64,000 nucleotides of DNA, taken from Streptomyces sp. B3I8 (lineage in GTDB: Bacteria > Actinomycetota > Actinomycetes > Streptomycetales > Streptomycetaceae). The notes beneath the pieces are model-generated. The model made no database searches, was not told where the DNA came from, and saw only the letters and a list, made by a program, of their open reading frames with translations. Where the stretch lies: positions 4,849,501-4,913,500 of the forward strand of contig NZ_JAUSYN010000002.1 of assembly GCF_030816915.1 (NCBI RefSeq), read 5' to 3'. Both the position numbers and the translations under genes were made by a program. This document shows positions 53,788 through 61,965 of the stretch, in pieces; position 1 is the stretch's first letter; every line of letters begins with the position of its first letter.

Positions 53788-53925
53788 CTCCGCCCCCGCC
53801 GCCCTTACCTTTCCCGTCCCTTGGGCGGGCCGCCCCCACCCGCCATGGGGTGCGTCGTCGGCCGCGGGCCGGTGGGGGCCTGTCGCGCGGTTCCCCGCGC
53901 CCCTTCACCGGGGCGCGGGGAACCG
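53788..53925. repeat. Dispersed G/C-rich element plus terminator hairpin downstream of the DUF5682 gene
   Basis: The left part (about 53795-53825) has the CGCCCCCGCCGCCC core and TTCCCGTCCC. The right part is a perfect 16-bp stem (53888-53903 / 53910-53925) with a 6-nt loop that overlaps the DUF5682 stop region and should terminate the four-gene operon. Confidence 0.65.
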
Positions 53926-56805
53926 TCAGACGTTCAGCAGGGCCTCCAGCGCCGCCCCCGTCGCCGGGTGGCGGGTCGTCAGGGTCGCCGCGCCCGACGG
54001 CGCCGGTGTGTCCGCCGATGGCCAGTTCTGCTCGCAGCCCAGCAGACGCGCCACCGCCTCGGTGGTCGCCCGGTGGGCCCGGAGCAGCGCGGCGCCGCCC
54101 GACGCGCGCGCGGCCCGCGCCGTCGGTTGCGTGACCGGTGCCGCCCGCCACGGCGGTATCCACGTGTCCAGCTCCGCCAGCCGCCCCGGGAAGATCCGGC
54201 CCGCCTCGCGGATCAGCAACGGCACCGGCCCGGCCCCGCCCGCCCGCAGCGACGTGATCAGCGTCGGCAGCCAGGGCAGCAGCACCGCGTCCGGCAGCCG
54301 CCCGAACGCGTTGGACACCGACTCCACCACGAAGTCCGCGAGCTGCGGCACCGGCTCCAGCGCGTGCAGGAACCCGCTCAGATAGCGCGGGTAGGACGGC
54401 ACCACCAGCGGGTTGCCCAGCAACTCGTCGCACCGCCGCCGCAGTTCCGCCCGCGACAGCCGGCCCAGGTGCACCTGCGCCGCCCACAGCAGCGCCACCT
54501 TCGCCGGTTCCTCCGGATGCGACTGGGCGACCGCCAGTTCGAGCTGGGTCCGGTCGCAGCCCAGCGACAGCGCGAGCCCCTCCATGCCGAAGAGGAAGCC
54601 CAGCGTCGCCGCCACCTGCTCCACCGTCGCCTCGTCGTCGGTGAACGCCATCGGCAGCAGCGTGCAGTAGTGCGCGTAACCGGTGCGGACGAAGGACTCC
54701 ACCCACTGCGGCAGCTCCGGCGCGCTGGTCCGGTAGTACGCCAGCAGCCGTCGTACCCGGCGCAGCACCTCGGGCGCGCCGTCGACGCTGCGCTCGGTCG
54801 CCAGGACCTCCAGCGCCCGCGTGCCCAGCTCGTCGGCGAGACGCCGGCTGCCCAGATACAGCACCGCGTCCTCGACCGCCCCCAGTACCGCCGCCGTCGT
54901 CGCCCGCGGCGCGTACGCCGTCCGCCGAAGCCGCTGCTCCAGGACCTGTTCGATGCTCACGCCCTCGTAGCCGAGCTCGATCAGTGACCGCTGGTGGGTG
55001 CCGAGCGCCAGGTCCCACGACTCCTGCAACGACCGCTCGCCCAGCGCCCGTTCGCCCATGATCGGCCGGGCGGCACCCTGCGGCAGCAGATACCGCAGCA
55101 TCCACAGCACGTCGGAGCAGCGCTCCAGCTCGGGCCGGCCGGCGATGTCCAGCAGCGCCCGCTGCACGCCCCGCTGCTGCAGCTTCATGCCGAGCGGTGC
55201 GAGCCGGTCGTGCACATCACGGGCGAGCGGCGGCAGGGCGTCGTAGCCGACCTGCCCGACCCGGTCGCCGCCCATCATGATCTCGACGAGCCGCCGCACG
55301 TCGCGCCGCCCCGGCACCCTGTCCTTCTCGATACACGTGACGGCCGCGTCCTGGAAGTCGTACGGCGTCGGCTTGGCCCGGTCGCGCATCCCGGCCAGCA
55401 GGATCGACGTCTCGAACACGGCGATGGCGTCCGCCGTGGAGGCGAGGTAGCCGTTGCGGCGCGCGGCCCGCACGATGTCCACCGACCAGCCGAGCAGCTC
55501 CGCCTCGTCCACGCCGTCCAGCACGGGCGGCCGGCGCAGGAAGCCGGACAGCCGGTCCGGCGCCGGCTCCGGCTCCGGTGCCCCGGTCGCGGGCGCCGGG
55601 GCGGCCGGCGCCCGCTTCGCGACCGCCTTCCTCTTCGTACCGGCCTGCCCGTCCAGCCGGTACGGCTTCACCTTCGTGCGCCTGACGTTCTTCGCCCACT
55701 CCGTCGCCGCGATCGACACCGAACCGGCGGCCAGCCCGAACTGCGCCTCGATCGCCGCGTGGCTGGACGGGATCAGGCCGTGCTGCCAGGTGCTCCCGCT
55801 GGGCGGCGTGATCTCGAAGGTGTCGGCGCCCCCGACTCCGAACTCCGCCACCCTGCTGGCCGCGTGGAACGCCCCGCACACGTACAGGCAGTCCGCCGGG
55901 TCCGTACCGGTCGTGGACAGATGCTCCCGCATCCGGGTCCACATGTACCGCTCGCGGTCCTCGTCCACCCGTACCCGCCCGGCGTCCCCGGGCGCCAGGC
56001 GCCGGAACAGGCTGCCGATCAGCAGCATCACCTGGCGGTAGGTGTCGTGGTCGGCAGCCGCGTCGCCGAGCGGGACCTCCACGTACTGGTGCCACCACTC
56101 CGACCAGTGCCGCACCCGGCCGTGCCGCAGCAGGTGCTCCTCCAACTCGGCGAACCGGGGCCGCAGATCACCGATCTCCACGCCGACCGCGTCACCGTGC
56201 AGCGCGGCCTCCTCCTCGGCCGAGGGCGTGTCCGGGTGTGCGGACCCCGTGGACCCGGCGGGGTCTTCGACCCGGGTCTCGTGCGACTGCCACTGGAAGA
56301 CGTGGTCCGAGGAACGGTCGACGAGGACCAGTTCGACGCCCGGCGTGTCCAGCGCGTACGCGATCGCCTGGTACTCCGCCGACGCCTCGGTGATCGGCGC
56401 GACCACCGACAGCGGCGCCCACTCGGCGGGCAGCCCCTTCACGTCGCTGGCGAACGCCTGCACCGCCACCGGGAGGCGGCAGTTGCGCAGCTCGGTCAGG
56501 AGCGGCGCCATGTCCTCGCACAGCTCCAGATACACCACCTTCGGCTGCTTCTCCCGCAGCCGCCGGGCCATCGCCAGCGCCGAGGCCGGCGAGTGGTGAC
56601 AGACCGGGAAGATCTCCAGCGGCTCGCGCACCGCCCGGTCCACGTCGTCGACGATGCCGAGCAGGATGCCCTCCAGCGCGCCCGGCCCGTCGGCGAACTC
56701 CGTGGCCGCCTCGTGAAGTTGCGAACGCAGCGCCTCGAACGGGCCGATCCCCGCCCCCGACGTCGCCCCTGCCCCCGTGGCGCGCACGGTCTCCGCCCCG
56801 CTCAC
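53926..56805 (-). CDS. DUF5682 protein with TraB/TIKI-like N-terminal motifs, YehM-like component of the MoxR-VWA operon
   Basis: A 959-aa protein, the last gene of the SWIM-VWA-MoxR-DUF5682 operon. I recognise DUF5682. Its first ~320 residues show, in order, FPVCHHSPAS (His70-His71), VVYLELCED (Glu94, Glu97), EYQAIAYALDTPGVELVLVDRS (Asp163-Arg164), DRERYMWTRMREHL and LYVCGAFHAAS (Gly311...His314). This motif order resembles the TraB/PrgY/TIKI family (GTxHxS, VxxELDxxR, LIDR, ERDxxM, GxxH). A Pro/Ala/Lys linker (~390-430) and a long helical C-terminus follow. The TraB relation is my inference. The GTG start overlaps the MoxR stop by 4 bp. Confidence 0.8.
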   Translation of the reverse strand: MSGAETVRATGAGATSGAGIGPFEALRSQLHEAATEFADGPGALEGILLGIVDDVDRAVREPLEIFPVCHHSPASALAMARRLREKQPKVVYLELCEDMAPLLTELRNCRLPVAVQAFASDVKGLPAEWAPLSVVAPITEASAEYQAIAYALDTPGVELVLVDRSSDHVFQWQSHETRVEDPAGSTGSAHPDTPSAEEEAALHGDAVGVEIGDLRPRFAELEEHLLRHGRVRHWSEWWHQYVEVPLGDAAADHDTYRQVMLLIGSLFRRLAPGDAGRVRVDEDRERYMWTRMREHLSTTGTDPADCLYVCGAFHAASRVAEFGVGGADTFEITPPSGSTWQHGLIPSSHAAIEAQFGLAAGSVSIAATEWAKNVRRTKVKPYRLDGQAGTKRKAVAKRAPAAPAPATGAPEPEPAPDRLSGFLRRPPVLDGVDEAELLGWSVDIVRAARRNGYLASTADAIAVFETSILLAGMRDRAKPTPYDFQDAAVTCIEKDRVPGRRDVRRLVEIMMGGDRVGQVGYDALPPLARDVHDRLAPLGMKLQQRGVQRALLDIAGRPELERCSDVLWMLRYLLPQGAARPIMGERALGERSLQESWDLALGTHQRSLIELGYEGVSIEQVLEQRLRRTAYAPRATTAAVLGAVEDAVLYLGSRRLADELGTRALEVLATERSVDGAPEVLRRVRRLLAYYRTSAPELPQWVESFVRTGYAHYCTLLPMAFTDDEATVEQVAATLGFLFGMEGLALSLGCDRTQLELAVAQSHPEEPAKVALLWAAQVHLGRLSRAELRRRCDELLGNPLVVPSYPRYLSGFLHALEPVPQLADFVVESVSNAFGRLPDAVLLPWLPTLITSLRAGGAGPVPLLIREAGRIFPGRLAELDTWIPPWRAAPVTQPTARAARASGGAALLRAHRATTEAVARLLGCEQNWPSADTPAPSGAATLTTRHPATGAALEALLNV

Positions 56806-57926
56806 GACAGGGTCGCGATCGCGTCGCGGCCGCCCTCGAGGAACTCGGGCCAGGAGCCACCCTCCTGCGTGCTGCGCGGCTCGACGACGCCGTGCAGGTA
56901 CTTGTTGAGGATGGCCAGGTCCTCCGGCGCCCGCCGGGCCAGCGACCCCACCAGCGAGGAGGCGAGCGTACGGGCGTTCAGCGCGCTCTCACCGAAGAAG
57001 TTGCTGTGCAGGATCGCGTCCTCCAGCACGCCGATCTGCTCGGCGGTGGACAGCGCCGACTCCAGCTTCTCGTCGTCGCTGCCCGCCGCGGCGGCCGAGG
57101 CACGCAGGTCGGCGAAGCTGCGCAGCAGCACATCGAGCAGCGTGGGCGGCACGTCCAGCTCTATGCGGTGCCGGCGCAGCAGCTCCTCGGTGCGGAAGCG
57201 GACGATCTCCGCCTCGCTCTTCTTGTTGGTCACCACCGGGATGCGGACGAAGTTGAAGCGGCGCTTGAGCGCGGACGACAGGTCGTTGACGCCCCGGTCG
57301 CGGCTGTTGGCGGTGGCGATGACGGAGAAGCCGGGCTTGGCGAAGACGATGTTGTCGCTGTCGTCGTCACTGCCCAGCTCCGGGACCGAGATGTACTTCT
57401 CGGACAGGATCGAGATGAGCGCGTCCTGGACGTCGCTGGTGGAGCGGGTGAGCTCCTCGAAGCGGCCGATCGCGCCGGTCTCCATGGCGGTCATGATCGG
57501 GGAAGGGATCATCGACTCCCGGGACTGCCCCTTGGCGATCACCATGGAGACGTTCCACGAGTACTTGATGTGGTCCTCCGTGGTGCCGGCCGTGCCCTGC
57601 ACCACCAGCGTGGAGTTGCGGGAGATCGCAGCCGACAGCAGTTCGGCCAGCCAGCTCTTTCCGGTACCGGGGTCGCCGATCAGCAGCAGACCGCGGTCGG
57701 AGGCCAGCGTCACGATGGACCGCTCGACGAAGCTGCGGTCGCCGAACCACTTCTGCGCCACCTCCCGGTCCAGGCCGTCGGAGCGCTCGGACCCCAGGAT
57801 GAACAGGCGCACCATCTTGGGCGACAGCCGCCAGGAGAACGGCTTGGGGCCGTCGTCGATCGACTCCAGCCAGTCCAGCTCCTCGGCGTACTTGATCTCG
57901 GCGGGGGCGCGCAGCAGGTCGGACAT
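56802..57926 (-). CDS. MoxR-family AAA+ ATPase, YehL type
   Basis: A 374-aa AAA+ ATPase. Walker A is GDPGTGKS (residues 84-91), Walker B/sensor region IGRFEELTRSTSDVQDALISILSEK, sensor 1 VIATANSRDRGVNDLSSALKRRFNFVRIP and a C-terminal lid. MoxR ATPases work with VWA proteins as chaperones that mature or remodel target complexes, and a VWA gene is directly upstream. Neighbours and sequence suggest the YehL subgroup. The N-terminal ~60 residues precede the core. The stop overlaps the DUF5682 start. Confidence 0.9.
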   Translation of the reverse strand: MSDLLRAPAEIKYAEELDWLESIDDGPKPFSWRLSPKMVRLFILGSERSDGLDREVAQKWFGDRSFVERSIVTLASDRGLLLIGDPGTGKSWLAELLSAAISRNSTLVVQGTAGTTEDHIKYSWNVSMVIAKGQSRESMIPSPIMTAMETGAIGRFEELTRSTSDVQDALISILSEKYISVPELGSDDDSDNIVFAKPGFSVIATANSRDRGVNDLSSALKRRFNFVRIPVVTNKKSEAEIVRFRTEELLRRHRIELDVPPTLLDVLLRSFADLRASAAAAGSDDEKLESALSTAEQIGVLEDAILHSNFFGESALNARTLASSLVGSLARRAPEDLAILNKYLHGVVEPRSTQEGGSWPEFLEGGRDAIATLS

Positions 57927-58014
57927 GATGAACCTCTCGGAGGAAGGTGGTGGGCAAGGACGAGCAAGTGGGTGGAGCGAGAAGGCGCGGTGCGCAAGCG
58001 GGGATCCGCGACGC

Positions 58015-59484
58015 TCAGGTCAGGAACGTCTTCAGCTCGTGCACGAGCTTGCGGATGTGACCGGAGAGCACCGGTGCGCCGAGGTCCTTGAACCGTTCCC
58101 GGAACCAGGGGTTGACGCTGCCGCGCCCCGAGCTGGTCACCGAGCCGACCGGGATGAACTTGGCCCCGGACCGGTGGATCGCGGCCATCGACTCGAACAG
58201 CGGCTCGGCTCGCCACTCGTAGAAGTCGGATATCCAGACGACGACGGTGTTGCGCGGCTCCGCGATCTTCGGTTGGGCCAGCGCCATCGCGACCGTGCCG
58301 TCCGTCCCGCCGCCGAGGTTGGTGCGCAGCAGGGTCTCGAAGGGGTCGTGCACCCAGGGCGTCAGGTCGAGCGCCTGGGTGTCGTACGCGATCAGGTGGA
58401 CGTCGACCTTGGGCAGTCCGGCGAAGATCGATGCCAGGATGGTGCAGTTCACCATGGAGTCGACCATCGAGCCCGACTGGTCCACCACCACGATCAGCCG
58501 CTGCGGCGTGGTCTTGCGGGCGGTGTGCCGGTAGTAGAGGCGGTCGACGTAGAGCCGCTCCTCCTCGGGGTCCCAGTTGGTGAGGTTCTTCCAGATGGTG
58601 CGGTCCAGGTCGAGGTTGCGGTAGACCCGCTTCGGCGGGACCGACCGGTCCAGGGCGCCGACGGTGGTCTTCTCCACCTGGGTCCGCAGCACCTCGGCGA
58701 CCTCGTCGACGAAGCGGCGGATCAGCGACTTGGCGTTGGCCAGGGCGACGCCGGACAGGTTGTTCTTGTCCCGCAGGAGCTGTTCGATCAGCGACATGCT
58801 CGGGGTGAGCCGAGAGGCCAGCGCCGGGTCGGCGAGCACCTCGCGCAGCCGCATCCGCTTGACGAGATCGGCCTCGACGGCGCCCAGCTCGGGGCCGATG
58901 GCCGGGATCAGCGTGCTCAGGTCCGGCGTCGGGGCGCCGAACCCGGTGCCGGTCGGGCTCACCCCGCCGGGGCCCGAGGCGCCGGGGCCCGCGCCGCCGC
59001 CCCGCAGTCCGCCGGGCTCGCAGCCCAGCGCGCGCTCCAGCCAGCCCGCGTCGGACTGCCAGCGCGCGAGCTGCTCGGCGGTGACCGCCCCGGAGCCGGT
59101 GGCGAAGACGTTGAGCAGCACCTTCGACACCAGCGTCGCGCGGCGCACCTCGGCGGCCCGGTCGCGCCCGTCGTCACCCTCGACGTCGACGTCGGGCACC
59201 ATCAACTGGTCGAACTCGTCGGCCAGTCGGGGATGGCGCTGCACGATCGAGTCGACGGACGCCCTGGGGTCGAGCAGCGCGGGCGGCAGGCCGATGTCCT
59301 TGACGACGGCGAGGCTCGACGACTCGAGGGTGGCCTGCTCCTCGGGGTCGAACAGCCGGGCGAGCAGCCGCCAGTAGAGCACCTGTCGGCGGTTGTCGTA
59401 GGGGTTGGCCTCGGGAGCCTTCGACGTGGTCGGCCCGGTGCGGGGCTCGGTCGGCCCGGTGAGGGGCCCGGTCGGGTCGGTCAT
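58015..59484 (-). CDS. VWA-domain protein partner of the MoxR ATPase (YehP-like)
   Basis: A 489-aa protein. The N-terminal helical region (~30-320) includes a Gly/Pro-rich linker (GGLRGGGAGPGASGPGGVSPTG). The C-terminal VWA domain begins at RLIVVVDQSGSMVDSMVN, a complete MIDAS DxSxS near residue 335, followed by NLGGGTDGTVA (MIDAS Thr) and VWISDFYEW (Asp). It is therefore predicted to bind Mg2+ and a protein partner. ATG 59484 overlaps the SWIM gene stop by 4 bp. The same frame stays open far upstream, but that part is antisense/shadow of the SWIM gene and is not included. Confidence 0.9.
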   Translation of the reverse strand: MTDPTGPLTGPTEPRTGPTTSKAPEANPYDNRRQVLYWRLLARLFDPEEQATLESSSLAVVKDIGLPPALLDPRASVDSIVQRHPRLADEFDQLMVPDVDVEGDDGRDRAAEVRRATLVSKVLLNVFATGSGAVTAEQLARWQSDAGWLERALGCEPGGLRGGGAGPGASGPGGVSPTGTGFGAPTPDLSTLIPAIGPELGAVEADLVKRMRLREVLADPALASRLTPSMSLIEQLLRDKNNLSGVALANAKSLIRRFVDEVAEVLRTQVEKTTVGALDRSVPPKRVYRNLDLDRTIWKNLTNWDPEEERLYVDRLYYRHTARKTTPQRLIVVVDQSGSMVDSMVNCTILASIFAGLPKVDVHLIAYDTQALDLTPWVHDPFETLLRTNLGGGTDGTVAMALAQPKIAEPRNTVVVWISDFYEWRAEPLFESMAAIHRSGAKFIPVGSVTSSGRGSVNPWFRERFKDLGAPVLSGHIRKLVHELKTFLT

Positions 59485-61415
59485 TTCCGCAGCAGCCTTC
59501 CCGCGCGCTCGCGCAGCACCGTGACCGCGTCCGTCGCCGCCTTCTCCGCCTTGAGTCCGGCCTTGTCGGTGGTGCCGCCCGCCCACGCCCCCGCGTGCAC
59601 GGCGACGGGCTTCTTCCGTACGGTCGTCTCGACGGCCAGCGGCTGCAGCCGGAAGCGCCCGGCGTCCCAGCGCAGCAGCCCGATGCACGCGTGCGACGCC
59701 GCCACGGCCTCCGGGGTGAGCGGCCCGGCGGCCGGCACGCGGTCGGTGTCGACGACGAGACGGTGACCGGCGACGGTGAACGTCAGGGTCCCGGTGTCGT
59801 CGTCCCGGTGGCTCTCGTAGCCCTCCAGGAAGACCGGTTCCGCGATCCGCGCGGGGTGCCGGTCCAGCGGCGCGGTCGCCGCGGTGGTGGCGGTGGGCAG
59901 GGCGACGCGGGCGGTGGCGAAGGCGTCGGCGGGCTCGCCGTTGCGGGCGTGCTCCTCGTCCCACACCAGATCGCCCTCGGCGGTGACCGGCATGTCGGTG
60001 ACGTCCATCGCGCGGCCCTCGCCGGCCGCCCCGAGCAGCGACAGGTGCGGGCGCAGCAACTGCCAGACGCCGGCCCCGACGACCGTGTCGGGCTTCGGCA
60101 CCGAGACCCCCGCCCGCACCAGGCGGGGCGACGAGCCGTCGGCGGGCTCCAGCACGGCGTGCACCTGGGCCTGCGCGGCCGTCGCGTGCTCGTGCAGGTC
60201 GATGCCGAGCGGCAGCAGCCGGCCGGTGACCGTACCGGCCGGGGCCGCGCCGGCGGCTCCGGGCACGGTCAGCAGCATCGCCCGCGACCACAGGTCGCCC
60301 CAGCGCCGCTCGGGCACCCGCTCCAGGGCGGAGCCCGGGCAGGAGGCGGCGAGCTCGGTGGCCAGACCGTCCAGCAGCGTCGCCAGACGGCGCAGCGACG
60401 GCTCCGGGAGCATCGCGGAGACGACGGGGGCGGCACCGGCGACCACCTCGTGGTCGAGGTTGCGCCAGCCCGTGCGGGCCAGGTCGCAGAGCCAGGAGCG
60501 GGCGGCGACCAGCAGGTTCGCCGGCTGCGGCGCGGCGGGCACCGGCTCCGGGTCCGCGTCGTGCGTGCGGCCGGTCAGCTCCTCGCCGCGGACCGTCAGC
60601 GCGTCGTGGACGGAGCCGAGGAGTGCCGTGCGGGCGGCGGCGAGGGCGGTGAAGTGGTCCTCTCCGGCGGCGCCGGCCGCGGCCTTCTCGGCCGCCTCGG
60701 TGGTCCGCGCGGCCAGCGGCGAGGCCGCCAGGGCCGCGGCGAAGACCTGAAGGTCGGCGGCCTGGGCCGGGGCCGGGCGCAGCAGCCCGCCGACGAGGGC
60801 GCGGTCGAGGGCGCCGACGGCGTCCAGCGCGTCGTCCAGGCCGGGGACGGGGGCGCCGAGCAGGGCGGACTCGGGGTCCTCGGGGCCGGCGCCGGCCGGG
60901 GGAGCGGGGGTCGTCGCCCTGGTGGGCGGGAACCAGTGCATCTCCGGGGACGGGGTGGTGGCGGGGGCCAGTTCGAGGTAGGCGAGGTGGCGCAGGAAGC
61001 GGCTGAAGACGGAGGCGGCGGCCTTGCTGCCGTCCGGCTGGGGGTGGGTGGCGGTCAGGGCGGCGGTGATGCCGGGTGCGGTCGGCTCCTCGCCGTCGTC
61101 GGCGGGGTCGAGGCGGAGGTAGCGGGCGACGCGGTCGGGGCCGTACTGCAGTACGGCCTCGGTGATCAGGGCCCTGATGTGGTTGCAGTAGCCGCCGCGG
61201 GCGCCGCCGCAGGGGCGGTTGTTGTTGGTGCTGCAGGCGTACGCGAAGGTGCCGGTGGCGACCGACGAGACGTAGACCCGTTCGATGTCCGAGCCGCTGG
61301 AGACGACGCCCTGCAGGCGGCCGTCGGCCAGTTCGACGAACGGGACCTTGGCGAGCTTGCGCGGCCGGGCGGGTGGCGTCACCCGGGCCGTGCTTGCCGT
61401 TTCCCACTCCGACAA
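59481..61415 (-). CDS. SWIM zinc-finger protein, first gene of the MoxR-VWA operon (YehQ-like)
   Basis: A 644-aa protein beginning MSEWETASTARVTPPARPRKLAKVPF. The SWIM-type zinc finger is AYACSTNNNRPCGGARGGYCNHIRALI (Cys61, Cys69, Cys77, His79), a fold implicated in binding nucleic acid or protein. The rest is helical and Ala-rich, with the late conserved segment RFRLQPLAVETTVRKKP. TTG 61415 was chosen because GGGAG lies 8-9 bp upstream and no conserved sequence precedes it, although the frame is open to 61904. It is translationally coupled to the VWA gene. Confidence 0.8.
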   Translation of the reverse strand: MSEWETASTARVTPPARPRKLAKVPFVELADGRLQGVVSSGSDIERVYVSSVATGTFAYACSTNNNRPCGGARGGYCNHIRALITEAVLQYGPDRVARYLRLDPADDGEEPTAPGITAALTATHPQPDGSKAAASVFSRFLRHLAYLELAPATTPSPEMHWFPPTRATTPAPPAGAGPEDPESALLGAPVPGLDDALDAVGALDRALVGGLLRPAPAQAADLQVFAAALAASPLAARTTEAAEKAAAGAAGEDHFTALAAARTALLGSVHDALTVRGEELTGRTHDADPEPVPAAPQPANLLVAARSWLCDLARTGWRNLDHEVVAGAAPVVSAMLPEPSLRRLATLLDGLATELAASCPGSALERVPERRWGDLWSRAMLLTVPGAAGAAPAGTVTGRLLPLGIDLHEHATAAQAQVHAVLEPADGSSPRLVRAGVSVPKPDTVVGAGVWQLLRPHLSLLGAAGEGRAMDVTDMPVTAEGDLVWDEEHARNGEPADAFATARVALPTATTAATAPLDRHPARIAEPVFLEGYESHRDDDTGTLTFTVAGHRLVVDTDRVPAAGPLTPEAVAASHACIGLLRWDAGRFRLQPLAVETTVRKKPVAVHAGAWAGGTTDKAGLKAEKAATDAVTVLRERAGRLLRK

Positions 61416-61965
61416 CGCGTCATCTCCCTCGATGTGGTGGCGGGGTCGCCGCCGGAGGAGGGCGTGTCCGGGCATGCCTGGAGAACCCCCCTCGCGGCGG
61501 AACCGCGGTACGGAAATGAAGCTAGCGGGGGGCACTGACAACGGGATTCGCGTGGGGTGGGGTGGTGTGGGGTGGGGATGCGGGTGGTGGGGGCGCGCGT
61601 GCGGGGAGTTCGCCCCGCCGCCCCTGCCCTTCCCGTCCCCCAGGGGCTCCGCCCCTTCGGCCCGCGGGAGGCGGAACGCTGCGGTAGGGGGGCGGCGCGG
61701 GAGAGCCCGGGTGGTGCGGTACGTCGGGCGGATACGGGCCCGTCGTGGTCTCCCGCGCAGTTCCCCGCGCCCCTGACGGAACGCGCCCACGGCAACCACA
61801 CCCGCCCCCGGAGCGCGGGGAACCGCGCGGGCAACCACATCCGGCCCGCACGTGAAGTACCGGGGGCGCCCCCCGAGGGCGCGGGGAACCGCGCGAGCGG
61901 CCACGGCGTGCCGACAGCCGGGGGACCAGGAAAAACAGGCAGGGCGCCCCCCGAAGGGGGGAGCC
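61416..61965. other. 550-bp intergenic region with dispersed repeats upstream of the SWIM operon
   Basis: No supported gene. It contains a copy of the G/C-rich element (61608-61645), three half-copies of the GTTCCCCGCG/CGCGGGGAAC sequence (about 61758, 61816, 61877) able to pair with one another, a run of GGTGGG units (61553-61590), and the terminator of the citB-type gene. The operon promoter must lie in the right-hand part nearest 61416-61550. Confidence 0.55.

Follow-up and report, generated by a model that had tools for sequence, protein, structure and literature searches.

Within a 64,000-nucleotide stretch of the Streptomyces sp. B3I8 genome (contig NZ_JAUSYN010000002.1, positions 4,849,501 to 4,913,500; hereafter the window), a four-gene operon encoding the proteins S, V, M and D lies behind a RecA-NDp/PafBC-type promoter and is probably a hitherto unrecognised part of the bacterial DNA-damage response. 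This role is indicated by the promoter region upstream of the operon. We consider it very likely, judging from the DNA sequence, that the operon is damage-inducible in Streptomyces. We also lean slightly towards the broader view that its product is an ATPase machine inducible by DNA damage and that it is a variant, probably mobile, of the YehL-type MoxR-VWA-DUF5682 system, a judgement in which the damage-induced machine weighs more than its detailed steps. The initial annotation of the operon held that its role could not be told from sequence; the promoter, which lies outside the coordinates it covered, overtakes that statement. The promoter and the four genes are as follows.

61519..61541, minus strand: RecA-NDp/PafBC-type DNA-damage promoter, with TTGTCAGTG at 61533-61541, an 8-nt spacer and TAGCTT at 61519-61524
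59481..61415, minus strand: S, a 644-residue protein with an assumed TTG start; the fused form of two genes in most relatives
58015..59484, minus strand: V, a VWA protein of the CoxE type with a MIDAS motif (VWA_CoxE, 105 bits)
56802..57926, minus strand: M, a YehL-like MoxR AAA+ ATPase (AAA_5, 132 bits; 39% identity to E. coli YehL)
53926..56805, minus strand: D, a divergent DUF5682 protein of 959 residues (hhalign to classical DUF5682; an orthologue matches PF18934)

Of the 330 relatives in a genome collection, the best 80 were retained, and the counts for these loci therefore concern close relatives. Comparison of 81 upstream regions revealed a common TTGTCAGTG-N8-TAnnnT pattern ~70 bp 5′ of S. 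The LexA-independent DNA-damage consensus is given as tTGTCRgtg-8nt-TannnT (PMC5656591; papers are cited here for those portions that were available to us). The RecA-NDp motif is the one through which PafBC acts (PMC6789036), and it was reported earlier upstream of a UV-inducible Streptomyces gene (PMC5087735). The site at 61519-61541 fits this consensus exactly; it is the sole exact match in the window, with none in 100 shuffles. Among 78 loci with the S-V-M-D order (type D below), an exact site lies within 250 bp in 60 and, in one (L025), somewhat farther from the extrapolated start; the remaining 17 carry one mismatch (15 loci) or two (2 loci), and the 8-nt spacer is kept in all. With up to two mismatches and spacers of 7–9 nt allowed, a background of 0.027 per region was obtained from part of 20 loci. 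Both strands of the 80 loci together contain 61 exact sites, all of them at the operon. In eight further type-D genomes, chosen out of 14, an exact site is found at the start of the operon, 4.5–4.7 kb 5′ of the D start, in 8/8, which matches the position in the window (distances calculated by hand); each of these genomes has 16–40 sites, as against 0–1 for the reversed pattern. LexA control was considered and rejected, as the pattern GAAC-N4-GTTC, which we take to be the LexA box, is absent from the 80 upstream regions.

To place the operon among its relatives, we use type letters A to D, labels coined in this analysis, for the arrangements seen in 29 fetched DUF5682 loci (28 actinobacterial loci and that of E. 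coli, chosen from PF18934 hits and not a random sample). In type A, S is separate from M-D-V, and divergent from it in the Streptomyces loci; type B consists of M, a fused D-V and S; type C has the order M-D-V-S, as in E. coli; and type D, S-V-M-D, is that of the window. Despite the four arrangements, M, D and V are adjacent in 29/29 loci, and a finger-type S partner occurs within about 4 kb (28/29 by tblastn, L105 by motif only), the S queries for types A, B and C having been chosen for their finger motif among three of the 29 loci. The initial annotation had proposed that the gene set is kept together, and this agrees with what is seen: in these DUF5682-selected loci the families are linked rather than mostly independent. 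With MoxR, VWA_CoxE and DUF5682 genes side by side, as in the four-part definition of a YehL-type system, the window operon is a variant of this uncharacterised system. In all seven type-B loci a single open frame covers D and V, and Pfam finds DUF5682 and VWA_CoxE in a single protein in both loci scanned (L097 and L100). Since a single frame supports physical coupling of D and V, the two proteins are likely to belong to one complex. A triple D-V-S fusion, considered for L100, was discarded: the D-V frame extends beyond V, but S is matched in a different frame, which leaves a D-V fusion only.

The window's genome (G000) contains 28 exact RecA-NDp sites (L127–L154) and none of the reversed pattern. 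A script chose the likeliest gene behind each site, giving one for 26/28, of which 20 were scanned. The genes behind the sites encode RecA, UvrA, UvrB, a UDG-family protein, an O6-methylguanine methyltransferase, an Exo_endo_phos protein, two UvrD helicases, a DEAD helicase, a PD-(D/E)XK nuclease, a RecD2-type HHH protein and DnaX. Five site genes have no obvious repair link (a PASTA kinase, an MFS transporter, a 2-hydroxyacid dehydrogenase, Methyltransf_4 and SUKH-4), and three of the 20 scanned have no match, one of these being the type-A S gene. DUF5682 systems account for two of the 28 sites, namely those of the window operon and of the divergent type-A S. A predicted RecA-NDp regulon including recA, uvrA and uvrB is thus visible in this Streptomyces. 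A LexA study of S. venezuelae states, in the portion available, that the PafBC motif seems not to be conserved there (PMC9380542); the genome of the window shows a different picture for its own case. It has nine WYL matches, two of which, about 1 kb apart (C2:1209624 and 1210625), form a candidate PafB/PafC pair by position. As for individual site genes, the SUKH-4 immunity-type protein is encoded behind the exact site L140 (G000:C2:2643565-2643587), which suggests a damage-controlled toxin-immunity gene, and the PASTA Ser/Thr protein kinase gene follows the exact site L136 (G000:C2:1682943-1682965).

RecA-NDp sites stand ahead of three of the four Streptomyces types, one of which is linked to a DUF4132 protein with WGR optional. 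All seven Streptomyces type-A loci fetched whole carry two sites, of which the one facing S is exact and the one facing M has a single mismatch. At the type-A loci of the eight further type-D genomes, an exact site is present on the far side of M in 6/7 checkable cases; G223 has no exact site and G236 is outside the seven. In type C, an exact site occurs about 3.6–3.9 kb upstream of M in 4/4 loci and, in the three with genes listed, precedes a gene of 1,151–1,224 residues. This gene encodes a DUF4132 protein in both type-C loci scanned (L103, 2052-5557; L121, 1939-5640), with WGR in L121. A similar gene was noticed upstream of M in a further type-C locus, L101, by reading only. In E. coli (L155), too, yehL is preceded by a WGR gene (yehF) and a DUF4132 gene (yehI), and genes of the WGR/DUF4132 type rise upon DdrO depletion in Deinococcus radiodurans (PMC8533742). 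Two sets of loci weigh against a general tie between DUF5682 systems and the damage response: in type B, RecA-NDp sites are absent ahead of both M and S (7/7 loci), and none of the eight type-A loci outside the genus has a site. As a separate observation on type A, the DUF5682 gene at G258:C3:172856-175573, in the Sphaerisporangium genome that holds L068, appears to be broken into three pieces and contains an internal TGA; it is possibly decaying or misassembled.

The layout described in the initial annotation holds at every coordinate: four co-directional genes, all on the minus strand, with 4-bp overlaps between S and V (59481-59484) and between M and D (56802-56805) and a gap of 88 bp from the V stop (58015) to the M start (57926). 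The start of S is ambiguous, as TTG at 61415 is preceded by GGGAGATGACGCG and an in-frame ATG is present at 61475; a strict start-context pattern was matched in 14/80 regions upstream of S. The S-V-M-D order on one strand is found in 79/80 of the best relatives, the exception (L061) being interrupted by a contig end. Median best-segment identity to the window is 94% for M, 84% for V and 80% for D (80 loci each), and 73% for S (79 loci). A deeper branch, L104 (G233), with D 63–65% and M 86% identical, has the same S-V-M-D order and a split S, and is of use as an outgroup for this operon type. Directly 3′ of the D stop, the sequence reads as follows.

53890..53923, strand not assigned: 14-bp perfect inverted repeat with a 6-nt loop, probably a terminator

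Repeats of the GTTCCCCGCGCCCC type flank the operon on both sides, at 53890-53923 and at about 61750-61900; presumably they are of the kind of terminator-like repeat common in Streptomyces.

The operon is probably mobile, judging from genome comparisons. PF18934 is present in 17/196 Actinomycetota genomes and in 58/61 genomes of the genus, where a type-A-like match of at least 799 bits occurs in 56/61 and type D, patchily, in 15/61. Counting flanks as shared when they have 500 bp of DNA in common at 70%, there are 48 upstream contexts among 76 loci and 52 downstream contexts among 74. Type D is 79–81% identical in Kitasatospora, Embleya, Sphaerisporangium and Actinophytocola, where type-A D is 51–68% identical (the methods differ, and the comparison is without core-gene control); in three Streptomyces loci (L007, L008 and L010) the type-D and type-A identities are alike, and a type-A match is absent in 3/10 genomes compared. 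The case for spread of the operon is based on this patchiness, the variable flanks and the identity pattern. A tree of D, from which L025, L032 and L061 were left out, does not reject one clade per order (p-AU 0.92 and 0.89) and so does not show transfer between orders. Five records of a plasmid collection carry the operon: two are Streptomyces plasmids (0.93 and 0.97 Mb) and the other three, of 3.1–11.9 Mb, may be chromosomes. The phage records searched gave no match to the operon. As a side observation, V strongly matches the phage family phrog_31592 (E 3e-37; function not assigned), and phage-encoded relatives of V therefore exist.

Family labels for M, V and D given by the initial annotation are borne out, those of M and V directly by Pfam (the AAA_5 and VWA_CoxE scores listed above). 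The motifs of M are present in 80/80 loci, namely GDPGTGKS (Walker A), ATANSRDRG and SALKRRF (arginine motif), as are DQSGSM and ISDFYE of the MIDAS motif of V, a protein in which GGGTD occurs in 61/80 and GGGND in 19. The window copy of D has no Pfam or NCBIfam match up to E = 1, and the copies of L007, L008 and L104 have none up to 0.1. The orthologue in L022, with 81% identity over its best segment, scores 103 bits to PF18934 (cut-off 26), and a match of 98–107 bits is found at the orthologue position in 11/15 genomes with the type-D subfamily. Comparison by hhalign of the D subfamily with 13 classical DUF5682 proteins gave 99.9% probability (E 4e-31, 683 columns). These three results support the DUF5682 label, and one plasmid orthologue is publicly annotated as a 'DUF5682 family protein'. 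Thus D is, as judged by profiles, a divergent DUF5682 protein, with PF18934 matching the subfamily and not the window copy directly; the absent match of the latter looks like a search-filter effect. One part of D could be given a putative fold.

55666..56634, minus strand: N-terminal alpha/beta domain of D (residues 58-380), EreA/ChaN-like fold by a weak match

The domain keeps the motifs HHxP, E, D and GxxH. Foldseek gave no match at E 1e-3 or better for the domain or for the full-length model of D, whose matches were mostly to helical repeats, and a sequence search of the PDB gave no match for D or M and only a chance-level match for V. Whether D is a hydrolase we regard as evenly balanced.

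The S protein, described in the initial annotation as a SWIM protein, could not be confirmed as such. Its candidate finger is the following.

61179..61235, minus strand: codons of a putative zinc finger in S (residues 61-79), C-x7-C-x7-C-x-H

This pattern is found in 81/81 loci in which the N-terminal part could be located, mostly as CSTNNNRPCGGARGxxC[NKR]H. The SWIM zinc finger (PF04434) has the pattern C-x-C-x(n)-C-x-H. Pfam searches of S, whole or in parts including the N-terminal part, gave no match and no SWIM, and hhalign found no similarity to the YehQ type (0.2% probability) or to the S of type A (0.1%). The SWIM assignment was rejected on all three counts: no Pfam match, finger spacing other than C-x-C, and no YehQ profile match. 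A distant kinship may nevertheless link S to the SWIM partners, since the true SWIM partners of two types, YehQ and type-A S, reach merely 3.9% mutually, with the finger alone in common. In 58/78 scorable loci S is split between two neighbouring genes, for a finger protein of ~170 residues and a partner of ~460 residues; in 20/78, as in the window, it is fused (L052 and L061 are truncated by contig ends). The fused or split state requires 10 changes on the D tree, over 21 fused and 57 split rows.

These observations can be assembled into the following mechanism, which as a whole we would rate as somewhat doubtful. The operon would be transcribed from the RecA-NDp promoter, with PafBC inducing it together with recA, uvrA, uvrB and the UvrD helicases upon DNA damage. 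The VWA and DUF5682 proteins would form a complex worked on by the MoxR ring, as suggested by the fusions and the constant linkage. The EreA/ChaN-like N-terminal domain of D, behind which a long helical arm would follow, may be a hydrolase acting most likely on protein, to judge by its fold and invariant residues, and the MoxR ring could load, activate or remove this hydrolase via the MIDAS of the VWA protein. In the weakest step, the CCCH-finger protein S might guide the machine to the target, which could be damaged nucleoprotein. More generally, we put forward as a tentative idea that the actinobacterial LexA-independent response to DNA damage has YehL-type systems as an unrecognised arm, which may have been recruited repeatedly and in which an ATPase-driven DUF5682 hydrolase clears or remodels proteins on damaged chromosomes. 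Among the papers searched, none mentions 'DUF5682', and a single one combines PafBC, MoxR, von Willebrand and DNA damage, without Streptomyces. The damage promoter offers a concrete condition, a laboratory strain and a regulator mutant for a phenotype search.

Three other readings of the operon were weighed against a damage-induced machine. M and V might be a cofactor-insertion chaperone that places metal or haem in a ChaN-like D, in the manner of NorQ/NorD or CoxD/CoxE, with damage merely raising its level. A constant cofactor enzyme was not seen among the few neighbours read in the 29 loci, where the search targeted the four parts and was not systematic, and we consider this reading unlikely. 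Somewhat less probable still is a conflict system (defence or abortive infection) of the same sort as the MoxR-vWA ternary systems of Kaur et al., set off when infection damages DNA. It would accord with the patchy occurrence of type D and its variable surroundings, with the two Streptomyces plasmids that carry the operon, and with the several paralogous types per genome. Yet PADLOC matches are weak (mad8 for M, TerY for V), PADLOC and PHROGs give no defence assignment, and no VMAP, iSTAND or FtsH part was found; moreover, the same four parts are kept at the median identities of 73–94% without swapping of effector domains, and the type-A-like match in 56/61 genomes is more housekeeping-like.

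The remaining reading, control of DNA topology by tuning of topoisomerase levels as for SCO4804 of S. coelicolor, we think improbable. SCO4804 has 815 residues (86.04 kDa) and its disruption lowers topA; upon TopA depletion, sco4804 and adjacent genes rise eightfold (PMC8120823). In size and place it fits the type-A DUF5682 protein: five type-A D proteins have 792–825 residues and 84.9–87.1 kDa (starts chosen by us), and the type-A cluster of the window's genome lies upstream of genes read by eye as sucC and sucD. We take sco4808 to be sucC. We infer from size and gene order, rather than from sequence, that SCO4804 is a type-A D, and this basis tells against the topology reading. So do the reported properties of SCO4804, which bound DNA non-specifically only and did not bind TopA, its effect on topA being called indirect by the authors (PMC8120823). 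TopA depletion may also simply damage DNA; if SCO4804 is indeed a type-A D, its induction under that condition may be a damage response, and the damage promoter thus suggests a fresh reading of the SCO4804/topA result.

Among known systems, NorQ/NorD, CoxD/CoxE and RavA/ViaA have dedicated metabolic clients and are not known to include a DUF5682 or finger protein. With the window operon they share a MoxR ATPase and a VWA partner, including a CoxE-type VWA. Seven MoxR subfamilies have been named, and YehL is among them (PMC3893208). MoxR proteins have been connected with PafBC in M. smegmatis, where deletion of pafBC lowers MoxR1 and MoxR2 protein (PMC5656591). The MoxR-vWA ternary conflict systems (VMAP, iSTAND, FtsH, beta-propeller; PMC7159879) resemble the window operon in having a MoxR and VWA core with a third conserved protein, which in the window is instead DUF5682. 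The main text of that report contains no word starting with SWIM or Yeh. A Pfam search of D, V and S up to E = 1 showed no VMAP, iSTAND, FtsH or propeller domain, and a bpMoxR match of M (E 0.059) is under the cut-off.

The type-A system of the same genome (G000:C2:4278294) has the same M, D and V parts, likewise behind RecA-NDp sites. It differs in that its S is a SWIM protein and divergently transcribed, in being near-universal in the sampled genus, and in its D, which is 28% identical to the window D over about 250 residues. For E. coli, we know of no PafBC. The gene order there is M-D-V-S (yehL-yehM-yehP-yehQ) as against S-V-M-D here, a difference that the initial annotation had rightly pointed out, and the SWIM finger of YehQ is a true one (31.5 bits), unlike that of the window S. 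The E. coli cluster and the window operon are nevertheless alike in the remaining components, M being 39% identical to YehL and V 30% identical to YehP, together with a match to the DUF5682 profile.

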